Shown here: piece by piece, positions 1-33,655 of the stretch
How positions within the stretch are numbered: position 1 is the first letter of the stretch
How the letters are laid out: the number at the start of each line of letters is the position of its first letter
DNA from: Burkholderiales bacterium
Lineage (GTDB): Bacteria > Pseudomonadota > Gammaproteobacteria > Burkholderiales > Burkholderiaceae_C
DNA length: 64,000 nucleotides
Reading direction: 5' to 3'
Assembly: GCA_016185015.1 (NCBI GenBank)
Contig: JACPOI010000020.1
Coordinates: forward strand, 248,001-312,000
The notes under the pieces: generated by a model
Database searches by the model: none
Told to the model about the DNA's origin: nothing
The model's input: only the letters and a program-made list of their open reading frames with translations
Program-made: the position numbers and the translations under genes

Positions 1-30
1 CCGCTGGAGTGGTCAAGGTGTAATTGAATT

Positions 31-46
31 TATTCGAAAACGAATA
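31..46. promoter_or_regulatory. Perfect inverted repeat upstream of the Fic gene
   Basis: TATTCG, four A residues, CGAATA forms a perfect 6-bp inverted repeat in an AT-rich stretch about 75 bases before the Fic ATG. It is followed by TAATAG, which could be part of a -10 element. It may be an operator for the Fic gene; no regulator is encoded next to it in the window. Confidence 0.3.
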
Positions 47-121
47 TTTCTAATAGAATTTGGTGTTGCGTAATTCGTTTTGAATCACGCCCCATCATCC
101 AGCATCATTTTTGAGGCTTCT

Positions 122-1732
122 ATGAAGGCTGAGGATCTCCCGGTCGATCCGATCGGAGCAGCATGGCTGGCCCGGCAGTATGGTCAGCTGCCCTTGTCGC
201 GCCTTCATGTTCTGAGCCAAGTCGGTGGCCAGCGGCGCGGCCAGGTGGTGGATGGCTACCGCCTTGAAACCTTCCCCGAGAACATGCGACCGCAATCGGA
301 TTTTGCCTCGCATTTGCAATTTCACCTAAGGTATGAGGTCGTCCACTTCGAGTTCCTGTCCCGGCTGTTTCGCGCAGGCGGCCCCCAGCCAGTGCAGGAT
401 TGGATCGATTCAGAGCCTACCGGCCAATATGCACGGCGATCAGCCTTCCTATATGAGTGGTTGACTGGCGCGCAGCTCGTCGTGCCTGCGAAGCTCGCGG
501 GCAACTATGTCGATGCTCTCGACGATGATCGAGTGGTTACATCGACGCCGGCTCGCATCGTAAAAAATGCTCGTTGGCGAATCAACGACAACATCCCCGG
601 CACCCCCGCCTTCACGCCGCTCGTGGCCAAGACCGACGCTGTTCGCGATGCCATCCAGACTGATGTGGCCGCGCTGTTCGCCGGTTTGGCCCAGGAATTC
701 GGTGAGGAACTACTGTTGCGCGCTGCGGCGTGGATGACTCTGCGCGAGAGCAGGGCTAGCTTCGCGATCGAGGGGGAGGACGACAAAGCTCATACCACTC
801 GCATTCAGCGTTTTGCAGACGTCATGGCTCGGCGCACGGGAACCGGCGACCTGCCCTTGAGCGACTTGCCCTTGGCAGAGTTGCAGCAGGAAATTCTTGG
901 CCCAAGACACACCTTGAAGCACTTGGGTCTCAGGAACTCACCAGTGTTCGTTGGTGAAACGATCCGCTTCCAAGAAATTGTTCATTACGTCGCGCCCCCG
1001 GACGATTACTTGAGAGACATGCTCGACGGAGTTCGAGTCTTCCTCGAGCGCACCCAGGGACAATCGTCCGCCATGCGCAGTACGGTCGCCGCGTTCGCAT
1101 TTGTCTACATCCATCCGATGGCCGATGGCAATGGTCGTGTGCACCGTTTTCTCATCAACGATGTCTTGCGTCGCGATGGAGTGATCCCGGCGCCGGTGAT
1201 CCTGCCAGTTTCCGCGGTCATTGATGCAGATGCCGGGGAGCGCCGCGCATACAACGACGTGCTCGACGTCGTGTCAAAGCCGCTGATGGAGGCGATAAGA
1301 GACAAAGTCTCTTTCTCTCGGACACAGGTGGAATATCCCGATGGGGTGGTGTCGAACTTCCAGTTCACTGGAGTGAACGAGGCCTTGCCAGTGTGGCGTT
1401 ACCCGGACTTGGGGGCGCACGTGGTGTACATGGCCAATGTCCTGGCTAGAACCATCACCGAACAGATGCGCGAGGAATCACGGTATCTGCGCAGTCATCA
1501 TCGAGCCAGAGAAGCAGTCAAGGAAATCGTAGAGATGCCGGATCTCCAGGTGGATCGGGTGATCCGCTCGATTGAACAGAATGCAGGAAAACTCTCAGGA
1601 GCATTGAGCAAGGAAATACCCGTCCTGGAGCAGCCAGGGGTGTGGGATGCGATTACCGAGGCAGTCGCTAACGCATTCATGGATGAAGGCCACGTCGAGG
1701 ACTCGGTTGTGAAACGCTATCGCCCGACTTGA
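122..1732 (+). CDS. Fic family protein (probable AMPylase, class II)
   Basis: Fic enzymes transfer AMP or related groups from nucleotides to hydroxyl side chains of target proteins. The protein carries the Fic motif HPMADGNGR (residues about 331-339 from the ATG at 122), with the catalytic His and the phosphate-binding GNGR. About 115 residues earlier it has SFAIEG, matching the [S/T]xxxE[G/N] inhibitory motif of class II Fic proteins, in which the Glu blocks ATP positioning. The enzyme is therefore probably self-inhibited rather than paired with a separate antitoxin. At 536 aa it is long for the family, with sizeable N- and C-terminal parts I do not recognise. A TTG at 80 would add 14 residues; the ATG is preferred. 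It is the only plus-strand gene seen in the island part and converges on the yggL-like gene. Target unknown. Confidence 0.88.
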   Translation: MKAEDLPVDPIGAAWLARQYGQLPLSRLHVLSQVGGQRRGQVVDGYRLETFPENMRPQSDFASHLQFHLRYEVVHFEFLSRLFRAGGPQPVQDWIDSEPTGQYARRSAFLYEWLTGAQLVVPAKLAGNYVDALDDDRVVTSTPARIVKNARWRINDNIPGTPAFTPLVAKTDAVRDAIQTDVAALFAGLAQEFGEELLLRAAAWMTLRESRASFAIEGEDDKAHTTRIQRFADVMARRTGTGDLPLSDLPLAELQQEILGPRHTLKHLGLRNSPVFVGETIRFQEIVHYVAPPDDYLRDMLDGVRVFLERTQGQSSAMRSTVAAFAFVYIHPMADGNGRVHRFLINDVLRRDGVIPAPVILPVSAVIDADAGERRAYNDVLDVVSKPLMEAIRDKVSFSRTQVEYPDGVVSNFQFTGVNEALPVWRYPDLGAHVVYMANVLARTITEQMREESRYLRSHHRAREAVKEIVEMPDLQVDRVIRSIEQNAGKLSGALSKEIPVLEQPGVWDAITEAVANAFMDEGHVEDSVVKRYRPT

Positions 1733-1855
1733 GCGGAATGAAATCGCTCTGCGCACCAGTGTACGAAGAGTTGAGCGAGTCAGAATTAATGCATGCTGTC
1801 ATGCAATCAAAATGCAGTCCCTTGCTTGGCAGGTAAGCCCTATTTGCAGAGCCCG

Positions 1856-2197
1856 CTAAAGCGTATCGTCATCGTCATCGGAGTGCCAAACATCGAAAAG
1901 CGCGCTCGCCCTGACCTGAGCGATCTCGGATCGGGCTTGAAGCCAATTCAGCACAGCAAGGCGTTGCGACTCAGAGACAGAGCCGCGACCGGGACGGGTG
2001 ACCACGCCACTACTTACCCAGCCACCAAATGCTAGGTCGCCAGGCTCAATGGCTTCGAAGATAAGGGCATCCACCAACGCCTCCGCCTGATCCGGACTGA
2101 GTGGCAATTTGAAAGAGGCCTCCCATGTGAAGCCAAGCTCCTGAAACTCACCGATTCGGAGCTTCTTCCTAAGACGACGACTGCGATTCTTTGGCAT
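1856..2197 (-). CDS. yggL: YggL family (DUF469) 50S ribosome-binding protein
   Basis: The 113-aa product opens with NRSRRLRKKL and EFQELGF, the hallmark N-terminus of YggL, and ends with SALFDVW, matching the family's C-terminal SELFDVW. The family is reported to bind the large ribosomal subunit in enterobacteria; its exact role is unclear. The start was set at the ATG opening MPKNRS, which fits family length; an in-frame upstream Met would add ten residues. It is transcribed away from the recombinase operon, after the metallophosphoesterase, inside the putative island. That is odd because yggL is normally a chromosomal housekeeping gene. It ends in an acidic DDDDD run. Confidence 0.85.
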   Translation of the reverse strand: MPKNRSRRLRKKLRIGEFQELGFTWEASFKLPLSPDQAEALVDALIFEAIEPGDLAFGGWVSSGVVTRPGRGSVSESQRLAVLNWLQARSEIAQVRASALFDVWHSDDDDDTL

Positions 2198-2293
2198 GCT
2201 AAGAACTCTATCGTATGAGGGCTTCACCGCCCAAAGGACGATCGTTCCTTGTGGCGAGGGTAGCCCGCCTGATTCCGCCGAGGGTGATGAGCA

Positions 2294-3058
2294 TCACCAT
2301 CCAGGTACACCCTCATAGATTTCCTCACCAAGACCGTTTTTGATTTGGCAGTAGCGAAGGCCGACGGCATCGAATCCCAGGCGGCTGCGGTGCTTGGTGT
2401 ACTCAGCTGTCTGGTCATCGTGATGGTGCCCATGAAAACTTCTGGCCACACCCAAACTGCGCGCCAGCCCATCTAAGGCCTCAAATCCGCGAGGATGGCA
2501 ACTTGGAGCCTCATGCGTCACAAGAATGTCTGCCCGTTCCTTCGCGAGACTGTCAAGGTCGCCCGGAAAGATGGCCGCATCGTACTCGGGAGAAGGTTCC
2601 TGGCCGCCTCGATACTGAAACGCCCCTCGGCTCATCGCAGCCTGCTTGGTGCCATAAGCCGGGGCAGCTGGAGGCATCCAGACACCTTGGACGAAGTGCC
2701 CGCCCAAGCCAGCCACCCGGACCCCGGAGAGATTCGCAACCTGGCCGTGTAATGCCACTGCGTCGCCGGCGTCATGCAGCATCGACCAGTGCTCGTGACT
2801 GTCAGCGTCGTGGTTGCCGTGAATAAAGGCGATCCTCAGATCGGGATCGAATCGACGTACGGGCGCGAGGATCTCTTTGAATGGCTTGTGGTCAATGTCG
2901 ATGTCTCCCAGAAAGACGATCCAATACGGCCGCAGCTGCGCTTGCAGCAGTGACTGAGCGAGGTGCCTGAACTCGCCGTGTACGTCCCCAACGAACCACA
3001 TACGGCGCAGTGTTTCGGCACGGTCCCGGTCGAACTCGGCGATGCGAGTGTTGATCAT
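2294..3058 (-). CDS. Metallophosphoesterase
   Basis: A calcineurin-like phosphoesterase with all the metal-binding blocks in order: GDVHG (residues about 24-28), GDID (about 51-54), GNHD (about 81-84), a THEAP histidine, and GHHHDD toward the C-terminus. Such enzymes use two metal ions to hydrolyse phosphomono- or diesters; the substrate cannot be told from sequence. The start is uncertain: a TTG at 3088, ATG at 3058, or ATG at 3001 just before the core are all in frame with no convincing ribosome site. It lies 75 bases or fewer downstream of the recombinase operon on the same strand and may be read with it as island cargo. Confidence 0.82.
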   Translation of the reverse strand: MINTRIAEFDRDRAETLRRMWFVGDVHGEFRHLAQSLLQAQLRPYWIVFLGDIDIDHKPFKEILAPVRRFDPDLRIAFIHGNHDADSHEHWSMLHDAGDAVALHGQVANLSGVRVAGLGGHFVQGVWMPPAAPAYGTKQAAMSRGAFQYRGGQEPSPEYDAAIFPGDLDSLAKERADILVTHEAPSCHPRGFEALDGLARSLGVARSFHGHHHDDQTAEYTKHRSRLGFDAVGLRYCQIKNGLGEEIYEGVPGW

Positions 3059-3132
3059 TTCGGCATCAATTTTATGAAGTTGGATCAAGAAAGCAGCCTT
3101 GCTGAGGATGTTCCCACTATTGTTGAAAGAAC

Positions 3133-3900
3133 CTAGGCGGCCGGCGCGCGAATCGATTCAAGCAGCAAAGACTTGGCCACGCCGTCACGGTTGTCGATCA
3201 CCCTGCAACTCGCCCACATCCAGGTGCAGGACTTGGCTGCCTGGAATAACTGATCGGCAAGATCGCCAGCGGTCTCATCCCCAAGATGCAATTTAATCTG
3301 GCGCAATCGGCCTGACACAGTACGTCGTGAGCTCCTGCTCAGTTGGACCAAGGCCTCTCTCACACCAACTGACAAAGGCCTAAACTGGACTTCAACCAGA
3401 TCCGATCGCAAGGAGCTGAATCCACGTTTGGGCAAGACCGTTGAGGAAAAGGATCCATCTGGAGAGCGCAAAGTTAGCTTACCTAGGTCATCACCCATCT
3501 GCCGACCTGACCGGGCAAGCGACTGACGTTCGACCAGATCCAGGAAGTCATTGGCCGACCATTGATGTTTAGTCTGAAGAAGCGCCAGCAAGGTGAACGA
3601 CTGGCGAACCCTCGATGCAGCAGACGCTGCTTCGATGTCGAGATCCGTCTGATTTAGCCCAAGAGAGCGTTCCAATTCAGGCAGCAAGCTGCGTTGACGC
3701 CCCTCTCTAATATAGACGTCGAGCCACTCCCCTCCCTCATCACCGAATCGTTTCACCAGATGGATTTCGTTGCCGCGAACAATCGGTTGGAGCAAGCTCG
3801 TGATGCCTCGTTGAATACGCAAAACCCGCCGGAGATAAGGCGCAAGCTCGGTCGGCATGTTAGTGTTTGAAAGCAAAACGCTAAAGACCTCTTTGCTCAT
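3133..3900 (-). CDS. Unknown protein, third gene of the recombinase operon
   Basis: A 255-aa soluble protein that I do not recognise. Its ATG overlaps the TGA of the recombinase gene (ATGA at 3897-3900), so the two are translationally coupled and probably work together. The region with QTKHQWSANDFLDLVERQ looks helical, and the C-terminal half is rich in Arg and Lys (for example SRSSRRTVSGRLRQ), which would suit DNA binding. By position it resembles the small accessory protein that follows recombinases in elements such as Tn554, but I see no sequence motif proving homology. No membrane segment or signal peptide is visible. Confidence 0.7.
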   Translation of the reverse strand: MSKEVFSVLLSNTNMPTELAPYLRRVLRIQRGITSLLQPIVRGNEIHLVKRFGDEGGEWLDVYIREGRQRSLLPELERSLGLNQTDLDIEAASAASRVRQSFTLLALLQTKHQWSANDFLDLVERQSLARSGRQMGDDLGKLTLRSPDGSFSSTVLPKRGFSSLRSDLVEVQFRPLSVGVREALVQLSRSSRRTVSGRLRQIKLHLGDETAGDLADQLFQAAKSCTWMWASCRVIDNRDGVAKSLLLESIRAPAA

Positions 3901-6680
3901 GTTGCAAAACCCTTCCTTCGAAAAGCGTGAAATACAGAAAGAGAAAAAAACAAGCCGTGAAACTCGTGCATTCGCACGGCCGCTGAAGGCGCACACTTGC
4001 CGGCTGAAATCTGTGTGCAAGTCAATACCAGGTACCCCAGCGGATGGCCCCGACGAGGGCGAACCCGCTCGATTCGAACCGAGGCGCCAAAGCCTGAGAA
4101 AAAAACGTCCCGAATATCCTTGACTGCAGCGCTGGTGCGCAAAAGACCATCAGTGCTTTGCTCATCGTCCTGAATGCGAATCACGAGTGAATCAGCTGGG
4201 ACCCCAGCTTCCTTGAGAAGCCGAAGTAGCACCCGCGTCGCCACGGGGTCATGCAGCGAAAGAACCTTGTGCTGCCACATCGATGACCAAGCTAGGGCGG
4301 CTTCCGCGGACAGGGAGTCCTGCGCGTGACGCTCCAGGTACCGTTCCAAATTGATCAACTGCGTGTTAGAGCCCGGCTCAAAACGAAGCTGATGCAGTGC
4401 GATCTGCTGCTGTACCCATTGCCGGGCATACTCGGCACTTGCATCCGCAAGGAGTAAGCCAGAAGAATGATCTCGGATCGTGCTTCTCCGCAGTCTTAGC
4501 GCCTGCTGAACTGCCAGGCATAAGGTGTGGATCTCCGTGGGCTGGCAAGACAAGCGAAGACATGCCGCTTCAAGCGACACCCCGCTAGAAACTGCGGCGA
4601 GCGCCTGACGTACCCAGCGCAGATCCCGTGGCGTCTCGATTGAAAGCGGCCCGATCGCAGGCAATTGAAAAAATGGAAGCTGCAAACGGTTGTTCAGGAC
4701 AGAAGGGTCTGCGCCAGCCTTCTGCGTGAGCCACTGGCTGTAAAGGGCATTAGAGGTACTGGTCCCGGAAACTGCTCGCGACGCCCGTTGGCGCAACGTG
4801 GCCGGCGTGATATCGAGCCAACTTGCAGTCTCATCCGTTGAATATCGACAAACTGCCTCGATACGATCGCTGGCCGCGCGCAGAGCGAACTCGGGTAAGT
4901 GAAAATAGGTCGACCAGAGAGTGTCACGAGAGGAGTGTCCAAGCTCATGGCAAAGCTCGTCCAAGGGCGACACTGCCTCGGCCGGCTGAGGTTGCGCGAG
5001 CAGCGAGTAGGCGCGAGCCGAGGCACTGGCATGCCGTAACGAATGGAAGGACACTCGGTCGTCCCCAGTGGCGCGACGCAGCAGTTCATTGGCGAGTCGA
5101 ACGCATTGTCCAATACGATATAGCTGGTGTGTCGAATGCGGATCTCCGAACAAAAAGAGGGGCGTACCTGAATCCAACTCGGATTCCAATACCCTACGGT
5201 CACGCCATCGCAAGATCAAACTGATTAATGCGGGGGCATGCACCCTAACGATGCGTCGCGCAGCCCGACTCTTGCCACCATGGAGTCCCCGGCCTGGATT
5301 CACGTGTACTCGAAGCGTGTCACCGTCTAGTACAAGGTCACTGGTGAGAAGCCCAGGAAGCTCACCAATCCGAAACAGTCCACCAGCACCCAAGGCCAGC
5401 AGCACCTGCACCTGTTTAGAAACCCGCTCGTCAGGAGAAACAGTGGTTGCATACTGCAGGGCACGTTGCTGCTCATGCGGCCAAACGAGATTGGCGTGAA
5501 CCCGGGTTGCCTCGACAGCTTGAAACATCACATCCGGCATCGGATCACAACCGTAGGTGCGCACTGCCCAACTGTGCAAAGAGGCTAACGCAGCGGAGCT
5601 TTGACCAGTGCATGCGCGCTGACGCAGCAAATCGAAGAGCCTGTACCAGTCCTCCTGTGAAAAGCAGGCCGGAGGGTACTTCAGCTCGATAAGTGCATCG
5701 GCCAGCGGTTCGAGCAGCGACGTCACATATGCCGAAATCGTAGAGACCGCAGGATTGACTTTTCGGATGCTTCCCACGGTAAGGAGATGAATCGCCCAGC
5801 TTAGCAATACGGCAGCGATCCATCCCTCCGATCGGATCATCTCGGTTACCAGCGTGAGCTTGTCACGCAGCTCCTTGCTGTTCAGGTGGGTGGCCAGACG
5901 GAGGCCGGTTTGGTTGACCGTGACAGAAAAGACCGACTGGATCAATGCAATCGCTTGAGGTGGTACGCGTGGCGCGTCGTTGGATGAGTGAGACAAAAGA
6001 CGGTCACCGACCCAGTCATGAGCCAGGTCGAGAGCAGGATCGGCCGCCAGCGACTCGATGTTCAAACCTGTTGGCTGGTCTTCGAGTCGGCGCAGCACCT
6101 GTTGATCAAATATCGGCATCCGAAATGCGCCCCGGACGTGGGAGTAAAGGCAAAGAGGCAAGTGCAGATACCACCATGTCCCTGCATCTTTCAATGCAAG
6201 GTCGAGCGCGGTCGTGTGGAGGGCTGAGTCGATATCTGGATAGATATCCTGCAGGAGTCTTTCGAGCTCCGCAGCAGAAGCTGCCCAGTCGATGTCGTTT
6301 GTAAGTCGACGGACTGCCAGTCTTGTTCGAACGGATAGACAGCGCGACTCAGTGTGCCGAAATCCCTCGCGATCAGAAGTCCACGTGATCCGGACACCTG
6401 GGTCGAAGGACGGTGTACTGGAGATAGCTTGGGCTAAGGCGATGAGATCCGGCTCGTTGAGCACACAGTCATACCCAATCACACACAAAAGAAAGCTGAC
6501 AGCAGGCGGAGCGTCGAGAAGATACCCAGGTAAATCCTTAACAAAACGATCGAAACGACTGGCGGCCGCTCCGGACCAAGGATTGAGCATCCAAACTGCT
6601 TCGCCAGCGCCTTGACGCAAACTGGGTCCACGGTCACGTTCGAGACTGGCGCAATCTATAGGTGATGCTGATCGCTTCAT
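3897..6680 (-). CDS. Large tyrosine recombinase (catalytically complete)
   Basis: A 927-aa protein whose middle part is a tyrosine recombinase catalytic domain. Visible residues are Arg437 in LFRIGELPGL, Lys470 in HGGKS, His546 and Arg549 in FHSLRHAS, His582 in ELGHSS, and the nucleophile candidate Tyr592 in STYFHL. About 400 residues precede and 330 follow this core, far more than in usual 300-400-aa integrases. The tail holds a possible helix-turn-helix (WLDITPATLRQRASRA). It overlaps both neighbours by ATGA, placing it in one translationally coupled trio. It presumably integrates and excises the island at the tRNA-Arg site at 9306. The function call rests on the catalytic motifs; the flanking domains are unassigned. 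Confidence 0.85.
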   Translation of the reverse strand: MKRSASPIDCASLERDRGPSLRQGAGEAVWMLNPWSGAAASRFDRFVKDLPGYLLDAPPAVSFLLCVIGYDCVLNEPDLIALAQAISSTPSFDPGVRITWTSDREGFRHTESRCLSVRTRLAVRRLTNDIDWAASAAELERLLQDIYPDIDSALHTTALDLALKDAGTWWYLHLPLCLYSHVRGAFRMPIFDQQVLRRLEDQPTGLNIESLAADPALDLAHDWVGDRLLSHSSNDAPRVPPQAIALIQSVFSVTVNQTGLRLATHLNSKELRDKLTLVTEMIRSEGWIAAVLLSWAIHLLTVGSIRKVNPAVSTISAYVTSLLEPLADALIELKYPPACFSQEDWYRLFDLLRQRACTGQSSAALASLHSWAVRTYGCDPMPDVMFQAVEATRVHANLVWPHEQQRALQYATTVSPDERVSKQVQVLLALGAGGLFRIGELPGLLTSDLVLDGDTLRVHVNPGRGLHGGKSRAARRIVRVHAPALISLILRWRDRRVLESELDSGTPLFLFGDPHSTHQLYRIGQCVRLANELLRRATGDDRVSFHSLRHASASARAYSLLAQPQPAEAVSPLDELCHELGHSSRDTLWSTYFHLPEFALRAASDRIEAVCRYSTDETASWLDITPATLRQRASRAVSGTSTSNALYSQWLTQKAGADPSVLNNRLQLPFFQLPAIGPLSIETPRDLRWVRQALAAVSSGVSLEAACLRLSCQPTEIHTLCLAVQQALRLRRSTIRDHSSGLLLADASAEYARQWVQQQIALHQLRFEPGSNTQLINLERYLERHAQDSLSAEAALAWSSMWQHKVLSLHDPVATRVLLRLLKEAGVPADSLVIRIQDDEQSTDGLLRTSAAVKDIRDVFFSGFGASVRIERVRPRRGHPLGYLVLTCTQISAGKCAPSAAVRMHEFHGLFFSLSVFHAFRRKGFAT

Positions 6681-8707
6681 GCTGATGCTCCGGCAAGTCC
6701 AGGCAGCGGACGGATGTCTAACGCGAGCAGGATCGAATCAATAGCCAGCGACGTGCCAAGCAGCCGATCACCCAGGATCTCAATACCGCTAGCGCTTTGT
6801 GGATTGATGCCATGACCTTGATGTCGCAGGAAAAGATGGACATCGGCAAGCGGCCGGTCCTCAGCTATGAGTTTGGTTGCCATCAGATGTCTGCCCCAGT
6901 CCCGGTTCAGCTCGACGCCCTTCCCAGTGAAGAGATGCTCTGTTTTCAGCTGTTGGGGTGTGCCATCCGCATCAAGGAGAAAAAGAAGTGGGACAGCTAG
7001 GTGTTTCCGAATGGCGTCGATCAGAGACTGCGCAGCAGTCGCTTTGTGGCCGAGCTTCTTGATTAACCGGTCTTGCAGGCTCGTGATGTGGCGTTGCCAC
7101 AGCTTCAACTGCGTACGAGCTGCAGGGGAGATCGGGATGGGGGTGCGACTTTGAGCAATGCCGACGCTTTTGTCGTCCAAAAACCCAAATGGTGAGCTAT
7201 CCAGCCATCCAGAAGCCAAGAACTCGGTCGTCGCTGATGCCCGCGCACCCGAGACGAAATGTAGGAACATTCCGACGCGCTTTGCGTATCGGTTGTGGTG
7301 CTCAATCAAGCTAGGAAGGCTGTAGCTACGGCCAACCCTAATTTCCGCAACAGCCAGATCAAGATCGGCAAAGATTGCGCGCGCAGTCTGCTCCTGGGCA
7401 GTGCGGGCAGACCCAATGCGACGAGCTGCCGGATCGTCAACAATCACCGAATCGCCAAGGCCAGCAGCATCAAATACTTTAGCCCTAAGGCTCCAGATCT
7501 GATCTTCGGAAATATTGATGTACGGTAGGTCGGAGTGATCAAGCAGGTGAAATGCGAGAAACCCATAGGCGGCCACTGCCCTGTTTCCGGTCAGCCGGAT
7601 GGCTGAGGAGGGACCAGATCGCAAAAACTTGCTTCTGACAGAAGCCGAGCGAGCGTCATCAACCGTGCCGATTGAAAACGACTGTTGATCCACAAGATCG
7701 CCCACGCGCTTAGCCGATGGACACATGGTCCACGCCAGCTTGAGTTGCTGAGCGACGAACTTAGGCAGCGGCAGTCGGAGCATGTTGCTAGTCACCTCAC
7801 ATCCCGGAATGGGTTGTCCGAGGTCTCGGAGTAAGGGGCGGATGTCTAAGTGCGCCACGCCTCGCGTGCCATCCAACCAAAGAATGTGCCCTTCACCTTG
7901 GTCGCCACTCCGTAGCGGGACCTGACAAAGAAGATCCCATTGGAGGTTGAGGCTGAACCCAAGCAGCGAGCCGAGCGCATCGGCATCCCCGGAGGTCGTC
8001 TCATTCATGAGCTTGGAGACTGTATCGAATAGCGCTGTTCCAGATAGAAACTTCCGGAGGTCGGCGTCGCGCTGCACAACGGGGTGAGCACTCGAAACCT
8101 CTGATCGCAGATGGTTGATCAGCTGGCTGTTGAATCGCAGGACAGATTTGTCCTGGATCCGGAGATGCTGGTTGAGAATCTCCGCGAGATCGACGCTGCT
8201 GCGGCTCAGCAGAGCCCCAAGAGTGCGCATCTGTTCTTCCGTCAGGCTGGGCTCGTCAAGGACAGCGCGGCAAAGTGTGCTGAGATTTTCAAAGCGCTGC
8301 TTGGGCAGAGGAAGGTCGGTCAGCAAGCTACTGATCAGCAGATTGCCTACCGTGCGAAGGAGCGGATCCGGAGCTCGCTCCGGAAGTCTCGACAGCACAC
8401 GCAAAGCCAGTCGGTTCGCCGGCATGAATCCCGCCGCTAAGCCAGGATTGGGCAGTTGCTGGTGTGTCAGTTCTCCGATGGCAGCATTTAGGCCGCGACA
8501 GATTTCGTCCATTGGCTCACGAGCCGATGGCAGCTGACTGATGGTGTGGTGTAGGCAGCGCTGAACGTTCTTCAGCACCGGCAGCGCAGAAAATTCCAAC
8601 GAATCGACCTCGAGCAAAGCGGAAAGCCTTGAGATGAGTGAGGCCGTTTCTTCGGAAATTGAAACATTCAGAACGACTGAGCGTGGGTCTTCAAATAACG
8701 TGGGCAT
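6677..8707 (-). CDS. Recombinase-like partner lacking the catalytic tyrosine
   Basis: First gene of the trio, 676 aa, with GGAG placed seven bases before its ATG. Its last 200 residues follow the tyrosine recombinase pattern: a box I-like GARAS with Arg489, then DWGRHLMATKL, which aligns with HxLRHTFAT but has Asp603 in place of the His and keeps Arg606. LRH with His629 follows. No tyrosine follows where the nucleophile should lie; Ser and Gly are there instead. I infer a fold relative that cannot cut DNA itself and may act as a DNA-binding or regulatory partner of the 927-aa recombinase, to which it is coupled by ATGA. The N-terminal 450 residues are unrecognised. Confidence 0.68.
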   Translation of the reverse strand: MPTLFEDPRSVVLNVSISEETASLISRLSALLEVDSLEFSALPVLKNVQRCLHHTISQLPSAREPMDEICRGLNAAIGELTHQQLPNPGLAAGFMPANRLALRVLSRLPERAPDPLLRTVGNLLISSLLTDLPLPKQRFENLSTLCRAVLDEPSLTEEQMRTLGALLSRSSVDLAEILNQHLRIQDKSVLRFNSQLINHLRSEVSSAHPVVQRDADLRKFLSGTALFDTVSKLMNETTSGDADALGSLLGFSLNLQWDLLCQVPLRSGDQGEGHILWLDGTRGVAHLDIRPLLRDLGQPIPGCEVTSNMLRLPLPKFVAQQLKLAWTMCPSAKRVGDLVDQQSFSIGTVDDARSASVRSKFLRSGPSSAIRLTGNRAVAAYGFLAFHLLDHSDLPYINISEDQIWSLRAKVFDAAGLGDSVIVDDPAARRIGSARTAQEQTARAIFADLDLAVAEIRVGRSYSLPSLIEHHNRYAKRVGMFLHFVSGARASATTEFLASGWLDSSPFGFLDDKSVGIAQSRTPIPISPAARTQLKLWQRHITSLQDRLIKKLGHKATAAQSLIDAIRKHLAVPLLFLLDADGTPQQLKTEHLFTGKGVELNRDWGRHLMATKLIAEDRPLADVHLFLRHQGHGINPQSASGIEILGDRLLGTSLAIDSILLALDIRPLPGLAGASA

Positions 8708-8990: not shown

Positions 8991-9305
8991 AATTTTGCTC
9001 GCCTGTGTCAAAGGCGTCAAAAGATCCGGACCAGATTGGCGGGGGCCCTGGGTCGATTGATCCGATTGGATAGCGGGGCATGGTCCCTAAACCGACCAAT
9101 AGTCAGTCTTTGGGAGGTGCAAACATGCCAGCGATAAGGGGCATTTTTGGCATAGTGCCGTGACAGGGTGTCTCGATCGGTGCAATACGGTGTTTGCGGA
9201 AGCACCGAAGAAACCTAGCTAAATCAATGACTTGATGACGAATGACGCCGAATGTTGCGGGGTAAAGGCGGTTAGGGCATTTGCATGCGCATCAATTTTT
9301 TAGCT

Positions 9306-9350
9306 CTCCGAAGCCAAGGGTCGTGGGTTCGATCCCCGCCAGCCGCACCA
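9306..9350 (+). other. Attachment site: 3' fragment of tRNA-Arg(CCG)
   Basis: The 45 bases read as a tRNA from the anticodon loop onward: loop CTCCGAA (anticodon CCG), anticodon stem GCCAA, variable GGGTC, T stem GTGGG, T loop TTCGATC, T stem CCCGC, acceptor CAGCCGC, A, CCA. Element lengths are all canonical. The 5' half (it would begin GCGGCTG) is absent, as upstream bases do not pair. This is the usual scar of integration into a tRNA 3' end and marks the island's right boundary. Confidence 0.85.
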
Positions 9351-9357
9351 ATCATCT

Positions 9358-9395
9358 GAAAAACTCGCGTATCTCCTTGATCCGTATGAGTTTTC
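9358..9395 (+). terminator. Terminator-like hairpin after the tRNA fragment
   Basis: AAAACTC and GAGTTTT form a 7-bp stem eight bases after the tRNA CCA end, with T-rich sequence in the second arm. It is probably the original terminator of the tRNA-Arg gene. The rest of 9396-9477 shows nothing clear. Confidence 0.45.
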
Positions 9396-9477
9396 TGTCA
9401 AGCCCCGCATGGGCACGCGCGTGTTCCGAGCGCATTCCCCGACGCCGGGTCGGGTAGCCTGCCTGCTGCCGCCGGAC

Positions 9478-9957
9478 TCAGTCCAGTTGCCGCTGCACAT
9501 GTAGCAGCAGGCCCGCGCAGGCGTCCTCCACCAGGTCCAGCACCTGCTCAAAGCCCTGCTCGCCACCGTAGTAGGGGTCGGGCACCGTTTGTGCCGTGCG
9601 CTGCAGGCAGAACTCGGTGAAGTGGCGGAGCTTGTGCCGTTGGTCGGGCGGGCAGAGTTCGCGCGCGTGTTCGTGGTTGTCCTGGTCCATGACCAGTACG
9701 AGGTCGTAGCGTTCGAAATCCCGGGGCAAGAGCTGGCGCGCGCGCAGGTCTGAAAGGTCGTAGCCACGTCGGGCGGCATGCTGCTGCGAGCGTTCGTCGG
9801 GCGGGCGACCGGCATGGTAACCATGAGTGCCGGCCGAATCGACCTGCACCCGGGGGGCGAGGCCGTGTTCGAGCAGCTGGTGGCGGAACACGCCATGCGC
9901 GGTCGGGCTGCGGCAGATATTGCCCATGCAGACGAAAAGGACGGCGTAGCCCTTCAC
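9478..9957 (-). CDS. Low molecular weight protein-tyrosine-phosphatase
   Basis: A 159-aa cytoplasmic phosphatase with the N-terminal signature CMGNICRS (nucleophile Cys10, Arg16) and the later DPYYGG carrying the general acid Asp. It hydrolyses phosphotyrosine; bacterial members often balance tyrosine kinases of polysaccharide export, but none is in the window. Its ATG overlaps the rsmI stop (ATGA at 9954-9957), so it is translated behind rsmI. It is the first intact chromosomal gene after the island end. Confidence 0.92.
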   Translation of the reverse strand: MKGYAVLFVCMGNICRSPTAHGVFRHQLLEHGLAPRVQVDSAGTHGYHAGRPPDERSQQHAARRGYDLSDLRARQLLPRDFERYDLVLVMDQDNHEHARELCPPDQRHKLRHFTEFCLQRTAQTVPDPYYGGEQGFEQVLDLVEDACAGLLLHVQRQLD

Positions 9958-10867
9958 GTGCCTTCGTCCTTCTTCAGCTGCAGTGCCGCCTCGTAGAGGG
10001 TGTTGCGCGACGTGCCCGTGATCTCGGCGGCCAGGCGCACGGCCGTCTTGAGCGGCAGTTCAGCCAGCAGCAGGGTCAGCACGCGCAGGTCGGGGCCACT
10101 CTCGCTGGTCTGCGCCTGCAAGGGGTGCAGCACCAGCACGAATTCACCGCGTTCCCGCTTTTCATCCGCGGCCAGCCAGGCGCCCAATTCCGCCGCCGGC
10201 AGGGTGACCAGCTGCTCAAATTGTTTGGTCAGTTCCCGCGCCACGGTCAGGGGGCGGGTGCCCAGCAGGGCCAGCGCGGTGGCCAGCGCCCCGATGCGGT
10301 GCGGCGCTTCCAGCAGCACGACGGCCCGCGGCTCACCGGCCAAGGCCTGCACGGCGGCCGTCCGCTCGCCAGCCTTGGCGGGCAGGAAACCGGCGAAGAC
10401 GAAGGCACCGGCCTCGTCAACCACGCCCGCCACACTGAGCGCGGCGGTGATGCTGCTGGCCCCGGGCAGGGGGACGATGGGCAGGCCGGCGGCGCGCACC
10501 GCGGCCACCAGGCGCGCGCCGGGGTCGCTGATGGCGGGGGTGCCGGCATCGCTGACATAGGCCAGGCGTTGGCCGGCCTGCAGGCGGGCGACGACCTGCT
10601 GCGCGGCCTCGGCCTCGTTGTGCTGGTGCAGGGCGATCAGGGCGGCCGAGGGGCGGTCGATGCCGTAGGCGCGCAGCAGGCTCTGGGTATGGCGCGTGTC
10701 CTCGCAGGCCAGGGCGTCGACCAGCTGCAACACGTGCAGGGCGCGCAGCGTGATGTCGGCCAGGTTGCCGATCGGGGTGGCCACCACATACAGCGCTCCC
10801 TGCGGATAATGCTGGGCAGCGGCCGCGTCATGCGCGGCGGACAGGGCGGAGGCGTAAGTAGCGTTCA

Positions 10868-10868
<1 letters not shown>
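9954..10868 (-). CDS. rsmI: 16S rRNA (cytidine1402-2'-O)-methyltransferase RsmI
   Basis: RsmI methylates the ribose of C1402 in the 16S rRNA decoding centre using S-adenosylmethionine. The family start LYVVATPIGNLADITLRAL is present near residue 26, followed by CEDTRHT and a C-terminal helical part ending in LKKDEGT. A TTG at 10868 is the only in-frame start that keeps the full N-terminus. It overlaps base for base with the divergent yraN ATG, so the promoters of both genes must lie inside each other's coding region or the start is misplaced. The rsmI-yraN-diaA-dolP neighbourhood matches the enterobacterial yraL region. Confidence 0.93.
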
Positions 10869-32659: not shown

Positions 32660-33655
32660 TCAATCGATCTTCATGTCGCGGATCACCGGCCGGAACTGGT
32701 CCATCTGGCGTCGCAGCATGGCGTCCTGTTCGGCCGGGGACGAGCCCACCGGCTCCGCCCCGAGATCGGCCAGACGCTTGGCGACCTCGGGGTGGCGCAC
32801 CGCGGCAACCACTTCCCGCTGCAGGCGCTCGATGATGTCCTTGGGCGTCTTGGCTGGCGCGAACAGGCCGTTCCAGCCCTCCAGTTCGAGCGAGGGGAAG
32901 CCGGATTCGCGCACCGTGGGCACGTCGGGCAGACCCTCGATGCGTTTGGTGGCCGTGGTGGCCAGCGCGCGCGCGGTGCCGGCGCGGATCTCCGCCAGCG
33001 AGGAGGACAGCTGGTCGCCGCCGAACTGGATGCGGCCGGCGAGCAGCTCCTGTTTCAGCGGCGCGGCGCCGCGGAACCCGATGTGCTGCATCTCGATCTT
33101 GCCGTCGCGCTTGAGGGCTTCGCCCAGCACGTGCATGGCCGAGCCGGGGCCGGTCGAACCATAGTTGTACTTGAGGTCCTTGTTGTTCGTCAGCAGCGCC
33201 ACGAACTCGCGCAGGTCCTTGGCGGGCACACCCGGGTTGGCGGTCAGCACGAAGGGCACGTAGACCGCGATCGAAATGCCAGCGAAATCAGTCTCCGCGT
33301 TGAAGGGCGAGCGATTGGACAGGGTCTGCGCCACCGAGGACAGCGGGAAGGTGATGTTGTGCATCAGGATGGTGTAGCCATCGGGCGCGGCCTTGGCTAC
33401 CAGGTCGGCCCCGATGGCGCCGCCGGCGCCGCCCTTGTTGTCCACCAGCACGGGCTGTCCCATGGACTCGCTCATGCGCTGCGCCATGATGCGTGCCACG
33501 ATGTCGGTGGTGCCGCCCGCTGGGAAGGGCACGATCATCTTGATCGGTTTGGACGGATAGGCCTGGGCCTGCGCGCCCGGACTGAGCGACAGGGCCAGCA
33601 GGCCTGAAAGTGCCAGACCGGCGAGGCGTTTGAAGATGCTCCGGGGTGTCGACAT
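32660..33655 (-). CDS. Bug-family periplasmic substrate-binding protein
   Basis: A 331-aa extracytoplasmic receptor with a signal peptide ending near PGAQAQA, then YPSKPIKMIVPFPAGGTTDIVAR and DNKGGAGGAIGADLVAKA, the two binding-loop motifs of the Bug family. It should bind a small carboxylate. The start at 33655 (MSTPRS) is preferred over a Met four codons upstream. No transporter genes are adjacent. It lies downstream of purU with a hairpin between them and is likely read alone. Confidence 0.92.
   Translation of the reverse strand: MSTPRSIFKRLAGLALSGLLALSLSPGAQAQAYPSKPIKMIVPFPAGGTTDIVARIMAQRMSESMGQPVLVDNKGGAGGAIGADLVAKAAPDGYTILMHNITFPLSSVAQTLSNRSPFNAETDFAGISIAVYVPFVLTANPGVPAKDLREFVALLTNNKDLKYNYGSTGPGSAMHVLGEALKRDGKIEMQHIGFRGAAPLKQELLAGRIQFGGDQLSSSLAEIRAGTARALATTATKRIEGLPDVPTVRESGFPSLELEGWNGLFAPAKTPKDIIERLQREVVAAVRHPEVAKRLADLGAEPVGSSPAEQDAMLRRQMDQFRPVIRDMKID

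Follow-up and report, generated by a model that had tools for sequence, protein, structure and literature searches.

Tyrosine recombinases normally work as four active subunits, or as two active pairs as in XerC/D. Here we describe a 28.8-kb genomic island of a Burkholderiales bacterium that ends in a run of three genes, A, B and C. One of the two recombinase-fold proteins encoded there lacks residues needed for cutting DNA and appears to be a lasting functional component of the machinery for moving the island. The run lies in a stretch of 64,000 nucleotides (assembly GCA_016185015.1, contig JACPOI010000020.1, positions 248,001 to 312,000 of the forward strand), which is called the window and whose own numbering is used unless a contig is named. 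An earlier, sequence-only reading of this DNA had taken gene A for the dead member of a heteromeric recombinase.

Islands with several recombinases (GInts, Gamma-Mobile-Trio and RIT elements) and one dead recombinase that selects a target (TnsF) are already known; they are compared here as far as the consulted passages of the cited papers describe them. In the GInts (ginABCD) all four genes are required for excision and integration (Bardaji et al. 2017, PMC5385486). Like our locus, they are islands with a multi-gene run of several tyrosine recombinases and a small protein at one end, and GinC lacks the first Arg of the motif. On the other hand, they have three recombinases instead of two, with RHRHY in GinABC except for the first Arg of GinC, and their imperfect repeats of 10-17 nt lie at an ABC-transporter gene, ssb and others, neither a tRNA split nor a replacement tRNA being described in those passages (PMC5385486). 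A GInt is recognised by three adjacent tyrosine recombinases and GinD; our run has two recombinase-fold proteins, and gene C is unmatched.

The clearest precedent for gene A is TnsF of Tn6022 (Faure et al. 2023, PMC10293859). This inactivated tyrosine recombinase binds the target and steers insertion to it, so that target selection by a dead recombinase is demonstrated; we set it beside gene A by its description. It differs in that its partners are Tn7 proteins, its target is comM, and it combines N-terminal zinc fingers with part of a catalytic domain (PMC10293859). The Tsy element also has two recombinase-fold proteins, but both must be catalytic (PMC10293859). Adjacent recombinase genes on one element are found in the RIT elements as well (PMC8138268). 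Their recombinases, in the passages at hand, are three (RitA, RitB and RitC) and not two. To our knowledge, none of the three is dead. Gamma-Mobile-Trio elements reportedly carry a conserved gene trio that includes the recombinase GmtY. In a passage citing Mahata et al. 2024, they are described as mobile islands rich in defence and offence genes. The recomb_GmtY model (NF040693, 441 positions) was not matched by the three window proteins or by five proteins of relatives at expectation values (E) up to 1; for GmtX and GmtZ a general library scan gave no NCBIfam match for A or C, the presence of models for these two in the library being unconfirmed.

Classical tRNA-targeting integrases share with our island the crossover in the 7-bp anticodon loop, with the stem as core arms (PMC8371274). 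They are single integrases, and the recombinant tRNA gene keeps the original promoter with very few exceptions (PMC8371274, as far as the passages go), whereas here there are two recombinase-fold proteins, one dead and one live, and the 10-bp core is followed by a second, complete tRNA. Among the literature matches listed, read as titles and abstract openings with supplementary files outside the scope, there was no family of fused or paired dead/live integrases. What seems to be new, in that we did not find it described, is a dead/live pair, present as two genes or as one protein, on islands that can divide a tRNA gene and deliver a substitute for it. In such a family, present in diverse bacteria, one recombinase domain in two would be unable to cut, which makes the contribution of the dead domain (target choice, directionality or single-strand exchange) testable. 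The pair is also the mark of an island family that can disrupt a tRNA gene and make up for it in cis with a replacement, the tRNA halves showing where the island begins and ends. A large integrase with tRNA specificity may come of it as well.

The putative non-cutting partner and its live neighbour

The run consists of the following features:

6677 to 8707, minus strand: gene A, 676 amino acids, predicted inactive tyrosine-recombinase partner
6680 to 7420, minus strand: predicted inactive catalytic domain of gene A, about residues 430-676
6677 to 6680, minus strand: ATGA overlap of the stop of A and the start of B
3897 to 6680, minus strand: gene B, 927 amino acids, active-type tyrosine recombinase
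3133 to 3900, minus strand: gene C, 255 amino acids, no known family

In gene A the GARAS motif starts at residue 487, which gives Arg489 for box I. The motif NRDWGRH has Asp603 in place of the HxxR His, followed by Arg606 and His607, and FLRHQG contributes His629 of box III. The last Tyr of the protein is residue 474, so that none follows His629. Arg489, Asp603, Arg606, His629 and the missing Tyr are all as the sequence-only reading had placed them; Lys513 (in LDDKS), which was not on its list, and His607 are retained too. A profile of the gene A domain (A4, seven rows made of residues 430-676 and homologues) matches XerD from the PDB with E 3.5e-8 and a XerC-like protein with E 4.9e-6. The three boxes (I, II and III) are in register when aligned with XerD, and the profile has Asn where XerD has the HxxR His. 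Because of the XerD match we assign gene A, on profile evidence, to the tyrosine recombinase superfamily by descent; with the nucleophilic Tyr and the HxxR His both gone, its residues indicate that it is not an active member. None of the NCBIfam, Pfam and PHROG families was matched by gene A itself (E up to 1), and Pfam Phage_integrase matches the other six of the seven profile members (best E 3.9e-5). Since the phosphate-binding Arg, Lys and His are kept without the HxxR His and the Tyr, the dead domain would be expected to bind DNA without cutting it.

The AlphaFold model of residues 430-676 has a mean pLDDT (predicted local distance difference test) of 73.2 and a pTM (predicted template modelling score) of 0.77. 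Its best Foldseek matches are the integron integrase IntI4 (probability 0.99), Xer and Cre, and the top ten comprise nine tyrosine recombinases and one topoisomerase I. The list favours the fold proposed earlier from the motifs but does not prove it, as none of the matches is significant at E <= 1e-3; the same was true of an earlier, poorer model (A3), with a poor N-terminal part and a mean pLDDT of 54.6. Aligning the profiles of dead and live domains by hhalign places box I on box I with E 0.13, which is not significant.

Gene B has the catalytic set R437, K470, H546, R549, H582 and Y592 by motif reading and alignment, i.e. the R-K-H-R-H-Y expected of an active tyrosine recombinase. It matches a PHROG integrase (E 2.9e-13) and Pfam Phage_integrase (E 6.8e-6, slightly short of the cut-off). 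The proposed ATGA coupling of the dead gene to a complete tyrosine recombinase therefore stands, as part of a run of three genes and not of a pair: a second ATGA overlap at 3897-3900 joins B to C. Gene C is without a match in Pfam, NCBIfam and PHROG (E up to 1), and its copy in a same-genus relative (G767) is 52.9% identical. This third gene, like the tRNA split and the replacement tRNA described below, was absent from the earlier reading. PADLOC reported nothing for A, B, C and three proteins of relatives, which speaks against a catalogued defence role for the three genes.

Compared with the G767 copy, gene A has 62.7% identity, with nonsynonymous and synonymous rates of dN 0.28 and dS 1.67 and a dN/dS of about 0.17 by a simple counting method with a high dS; for the dead domain alone dN is 0.27 and dS 1.64. 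Despite the low overall identity, R489, K513, D603, R606, H607 and H629 are identical in the two copies. The corresponding proportions (pN/pS) are 0.35 for A and 0.38 and 0.40 for B and C, synonymous change being near saturation there. These values indicate that gene A is under purifying selection, constrained like its partners and not decaying.

Dead and live domains among relatives

Order-level searches covered 399 genomes each for queries A and B, and gave 4 positive genomes for A and 5 for B, our own included. In G124 and in contig 24 of G251 both queries land in one open reading frame (ORF) of about 1840-1860 amino acids. Alignments of six, then ten proteins or concatenated pairs have the motifs of A in the N-terminal half and those of B in the C-terminal half. 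A profile of the dead half (A2) was positive in 20 of 369 class-level genomes at E <= 1e-5; six of these matches (E 1.3e-7 to 6.0e-6, ORFs of 296-389 amino acids) look like ordinary recombinases and were excluded by size. Within the genus, 5 of 26 genomes were positive, our own included. A fused protein found 2 plasmid records. Nothing came from scans for close relatives (A in genome contigs and plasmids, B in plasmids, near-identical sequences in E. coli genomes), and a scan of viral contigs with one dead-half profile (A1) gave no relative.

For the census of catalytic residues we took 26 dead ORFs, leaving out G423, the G765 fused gene (L128) and truncated pieces in G796; one row (G509 C4) aligned only as far as the Lys, so that 25 are readable at box III, and the near-identical L028 and L030 are counted separately. 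The live census has 24 ORFs, including L015 and leaving out G800 and L128. Dead ORFs have the box-I Arg in 25 of 26 and the Lys in 25 of 26 cases. All 25 readable ones keep the second Arg and the box-III His; the HxxR His is present in a single one (1/25), with Asn in 15. The live ORFs, in contrast, have the Tyr in 24/24 and the HxxR His in 22/24. No readable dead ORF (0/25) has a Tyr at the live spacing of +9/+10. Homologues with a Tyr at a shifted position were named in the sequence-only reading as what would refute it, and this is seen in part: six of the 25 have a Tyr somewhere at +5 to +12 (+6, +7, +8 twice and +11 twice), and those at +8 in L028 and L030 and at +11 in G453 and G641 might be shifted nucleophiles.

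The homologues come from 29 distinct stretches. Dead and live domains share one ORF in 13 of them (L028 and L030 again counted separately) and are separate genes in 10, the window included; in two more (L012 and G540) the break lies inside the dead half. The existence of one-ORF forms, forms split in the dead half and two-gene forms suggests fission or fusion at different points, with the pair mostly kept together. Because the dead and the live domain are found together again and again, side by side or within one ORF, we favour a heteromeric recombinase with one non-cutting subunit, as the sequence-only reading had proposed; the purifying selection on gene A and the split-tRNA islands in 9/29 stretches support it further. 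In such a recombinase A and B would associate physically, and the dead half would bind or regulate.

Several of the loci deserve a separate remark. In Thauera phenylacetica (L030:4641-6622) the fused gene is broken close to its start by the insertion of another gene, and a near-identical whole copy occurs in a metagenome-assembled genome of Anaerolineales (L028), where a binning error or a recent transfer is possible. The record NZ_AP026896.1 (L031) is entered as a plasmid of Aeromonas caviae. With a length of 4.94 Mb and with tRNA-Ile, tRNA-Ala and tRNA-Asp spaced as in an rRNA operon, it is probably a chromosome and not a plasmid. On a Ketogulonicigenium plasmid (L032) a small gene follows the pair and is placed like gene C, and at other loci a small gene lies ahead of the dead gene; these are possible homologues of gene C. 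For the split pair of Gallionella (L012), a search for an empty site gave only its own genome and three short weak matches.

The split tRNA-Arg(CCG) and its replacement

The right end of the island has the following features:

9145 to 9305, no strand assigned: right-end segment of the island, common to G767 and G796
9306 to 9315, plus strand: right attachment core CTCCGAAGCC, 10 bp, made of the anticodon loop CTCCGAA and the stem GCC of tRNA-Arg(CCG)
9306 to 9350, plus strand: displaced 3' part of the chromosomal tRNA-Arg(CCG), 45 nt
9351 to 10868, no strand assigned: resumed chromosome with low-molecular-weight phosphatase-like and RsmI-like genes, named by eye

Identical 10 bp stand at the left junction (contig C17, 228458-228467). 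There, left of the window, we find the 5' part of the broken host tRNA (tRNA positions 1-41, C17:228427-228467) and, 54 nt after its end, a complete tRNA-Arg(CCG) at C17:228522-228597, whose last 45 nt recur at window 9306-9350. Since the 5' part and the 3' part stand at the two island ends, the host tRNA was cut after CTCCGAAGCC, and the complete tRNA is island-borne. The 45-bp repeat had been considered as an ordinary attachment site at a tRNA 3' end, which was dropped once the upstream 5' part was found. Empty sites are seen in two genomes of the same genus (G778 and G773), where an intact tRNA-Arg is joined directly to the chromosomal flank.

G767 and a remnant in G796 have the left linker and the right-end sequence of the window island; the right-end match is 76.8% over 211 bp for G767, including the tRNA part, and for G796 lies inside an 829-bp match at 82.0%. 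The window island, G767, the G796 remnant and the distant G641 all have a tRNA broken at the anticodon loop and a complete tRNA lying between its two parts. The island of G641, which belongs to another family, has its own tRNA-Arg(CCG) in the order 5' part, complete tRNA and, 37 kb off, 3' part, with a core of 18 bp. The island tRNA-Arg genes of G767 (C34:87333-87408) and G641 (C38:104717-104793) have, by eye, paired changes in the anticodon stem relative to the broken host tRNA, as expected of a working tRNA. The remnant island itself (G796:C71:1798-5650) measures about 3.7 kb. Both tRNA junctions survive in it, gene A is reduced to truncated pieces, and part of the right flank is masked.

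A tRNA part can be attributed in 9/29 stretches, and not all of these are tRNA-Arg. For example, in Aeromonas caviae (L031) a tRNA-Asp 3' part beginning at the anticodon loop lies 716 bp upstream of the dead gene, with a complete tRNA-Asp 46 kb away. G800 has such a 3' part of tRNA-Met(CAT) 546 bp upstream and a complete copy on another contig. Single parts were found in three more stretches: a Met-like 3' part at 211 bp in G540, for which a search allowing 3 mismatches gave no second copy, a tRNA-Val 5' part in G555, and in G124 a 3' part that is Arg-like and degenerate. We did not count a tRNA-Val repeat in G453, which turned out to be part of another island with its own integrase about 20 kb away.

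These arrangements suggest how the module could work. A, B and C would be the recombination module of the island, with B as the catalytic tyrosine recombinase, C as an accessory protein and A as a non-cutting recombinase-fold partner that holds the DNA next to B or across from it and thereby governs target recognition and synapsis. The complex of A and B would recombine the island end with the anticodon stem-loop of a tRNA, here tRNA-Arg(CCG), the 10-bp core being the 7-nt loop plus GCC. The island would carry a complete replacement tRNA because its insertion breaks the tRNA gene. Transcription of this replacement from the original promoter could still take place, as it follows the broken 5' part at a distance of 54 nt. 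A more detailed version, tentative and rather doubtful in our view, is a pseudo-tetramer of two dead/live pairs, with a fused chain or an A-B dimer on each attachment (att) site. With one A and one B per att site only one strand exchange would be possible; one strand would be cut per duplex, integration in the anticodon loop would be an obligate single-strand exchange, and the Holliday junction would be finished by replication or host enzymes. The replacement tRNA would then spare a long tRNA identity, and the proteins would form a widespread class of "half-active" integrases.

Which recombinase inserted the island

We consider it probable that the A/B/C module, with its dead/live recombinase, integrates the island, and that the dead half binds DNA without cutting it. 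The gene adjoining the junction is the dead partner in the window, Aeromonas, G540 and G800. Furthermore, a 63.5-kb stretch of G767 that holds a whole tRNA-Arg island contains A and B and, judged by integrase and live profiles, no other recombinase. That A and B act as one complex, that they and not a second integrase made the insertion, what A does there and whether the replacement tRNA is expressed are points that we infer from these arrangements.

Several observations weigh against this. In three of the 29 stretches (G646, G407 and L065) a dead ORF was found with no live partner, and the live-type L015 has no dead partner on its 8.9-kb contig; gene B of G767 carries an in-frame stop. No tRNA half could be attributed in 20/29 stretches, many of them short contigs and others long (G509 C2, G423 and G004). 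A scan of 24 loci for a tRNA 3' part within 3 kb upstream of the first gene of the run, which left out the window and in which two motif matches proved not to be tRNA, found one in three (G540, G800 and L031, at 211, 546 and 716 bp) and none in 21, with less than 3 kb available at contig ends; one of the 21, G407, has a complete tRNA-Val upstream of the run. The distance from the run to the right junction is 39 kb in G767 and 8-9 kb in G641. Moreover, the loci were picked for carrying the pair, so its presence beside split tRNAs is partly a matter of selection. The history of the replacement tRNA may also be less simple. In G641 the complete tRNA and the displaced part share 53 bp past the tRNA with one mismatch, and the displaced 3' parts of G767 (C34, about 33160-33202) and G796 (C71, about 5615-5650) lack the same 2 nt relative to the window. 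The shortening reflects either shared descent of the insertion or coincidence, and the tRNA of the G641 island may have been captured with its terminator or may have arisen in two steps; together the two observations make a two-step history of the replacement tRNA possible.

A further point of this kind is a second tyrosine integrase, of the Arm-DNA-bind_2 type, which is found in the window island (C17:239254-240762, 502 amino acids) and in 9/29 stretches in all (G000:C17, L013, L028, L031, L056, L058, L059, L063 and L067), including four of the nine with split tRNAs (window, G641, Aeromonas and G124). In the main rival explanation it would have inserted the island, with A/B/C as a separate passenger, be it a control or excision factor or a nested second element. 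The enzyme is complete and ordinary (Pfam E 6.4e-22 and 6.3e-20), it keeps company with the pair in those nine stretches (in one as a 188-amino-acid piece at a contig edge), and in G413 an intact tRNA-Arg precedes its start by about 670 bp. We nevertheless regard this as unlikely: it was not found in the G767 stretch that spans the whole tRNA-Arg island, nor in the stretches of G800, G555, G540 and the G796 remnant (all four partial), and in the window and Aeromonas it is not the recombinase beside the junction. Besides, a tRNA 3' part lies 211-716 bp from the run in three loci and about 600 bp from it in the window.

Two other explanations concern gene A itself. It could be catalytic after all, with a Tyr from another position or supplied in trans, so that both subunits cut DNA. 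The tyrosines at +8 in L028/L030, at +11 in G453 and G641 and at +6 and +7 in two others would fit this, and Flp is described as cleaving in trans in the consulted part of a review (PMC8371274). It is nonetheless very unlikely, given that 19/25 readable dead ORFs, that of the window among them, have no Tyr at +5 to +12 and that 24/25 miss the HxxR His. Hardly tenable is the idea that gene A is a degenerate, functionless duplicate of B drifting to loss: its active-site His and Tyr are indeed gone and G796 retains only truncated pieces, but the dN/dS of about 0.17 and the identical key residues, the same pattern of loss across widely diverged homologues and the fusion to a live domain in 13/29 stretches all argue against drift. 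For the island as a whole we retain the reading in which the A/B/C module carries out the integration.

The one remaining G796 stretch, counted among the 29, had no match to the profiles. Five proteins neighbouring the Arm-type integrase were scanned and gave an HD domain in three and nothing in two. The cargo of the island (C17:228598-248000 and window 1-3088) resembles a defence island. Left of the window we recognised by eye nucleotidyltransferase-like, SLATT-like, DUF262-like and phospholipase-D-like genes, a type I restriction system and a kinase; inside the window, library matches identify a Fic protein (80-1732), a YggL-like protein (1856-2227) and a metallophosphoesterase (2294-3088).

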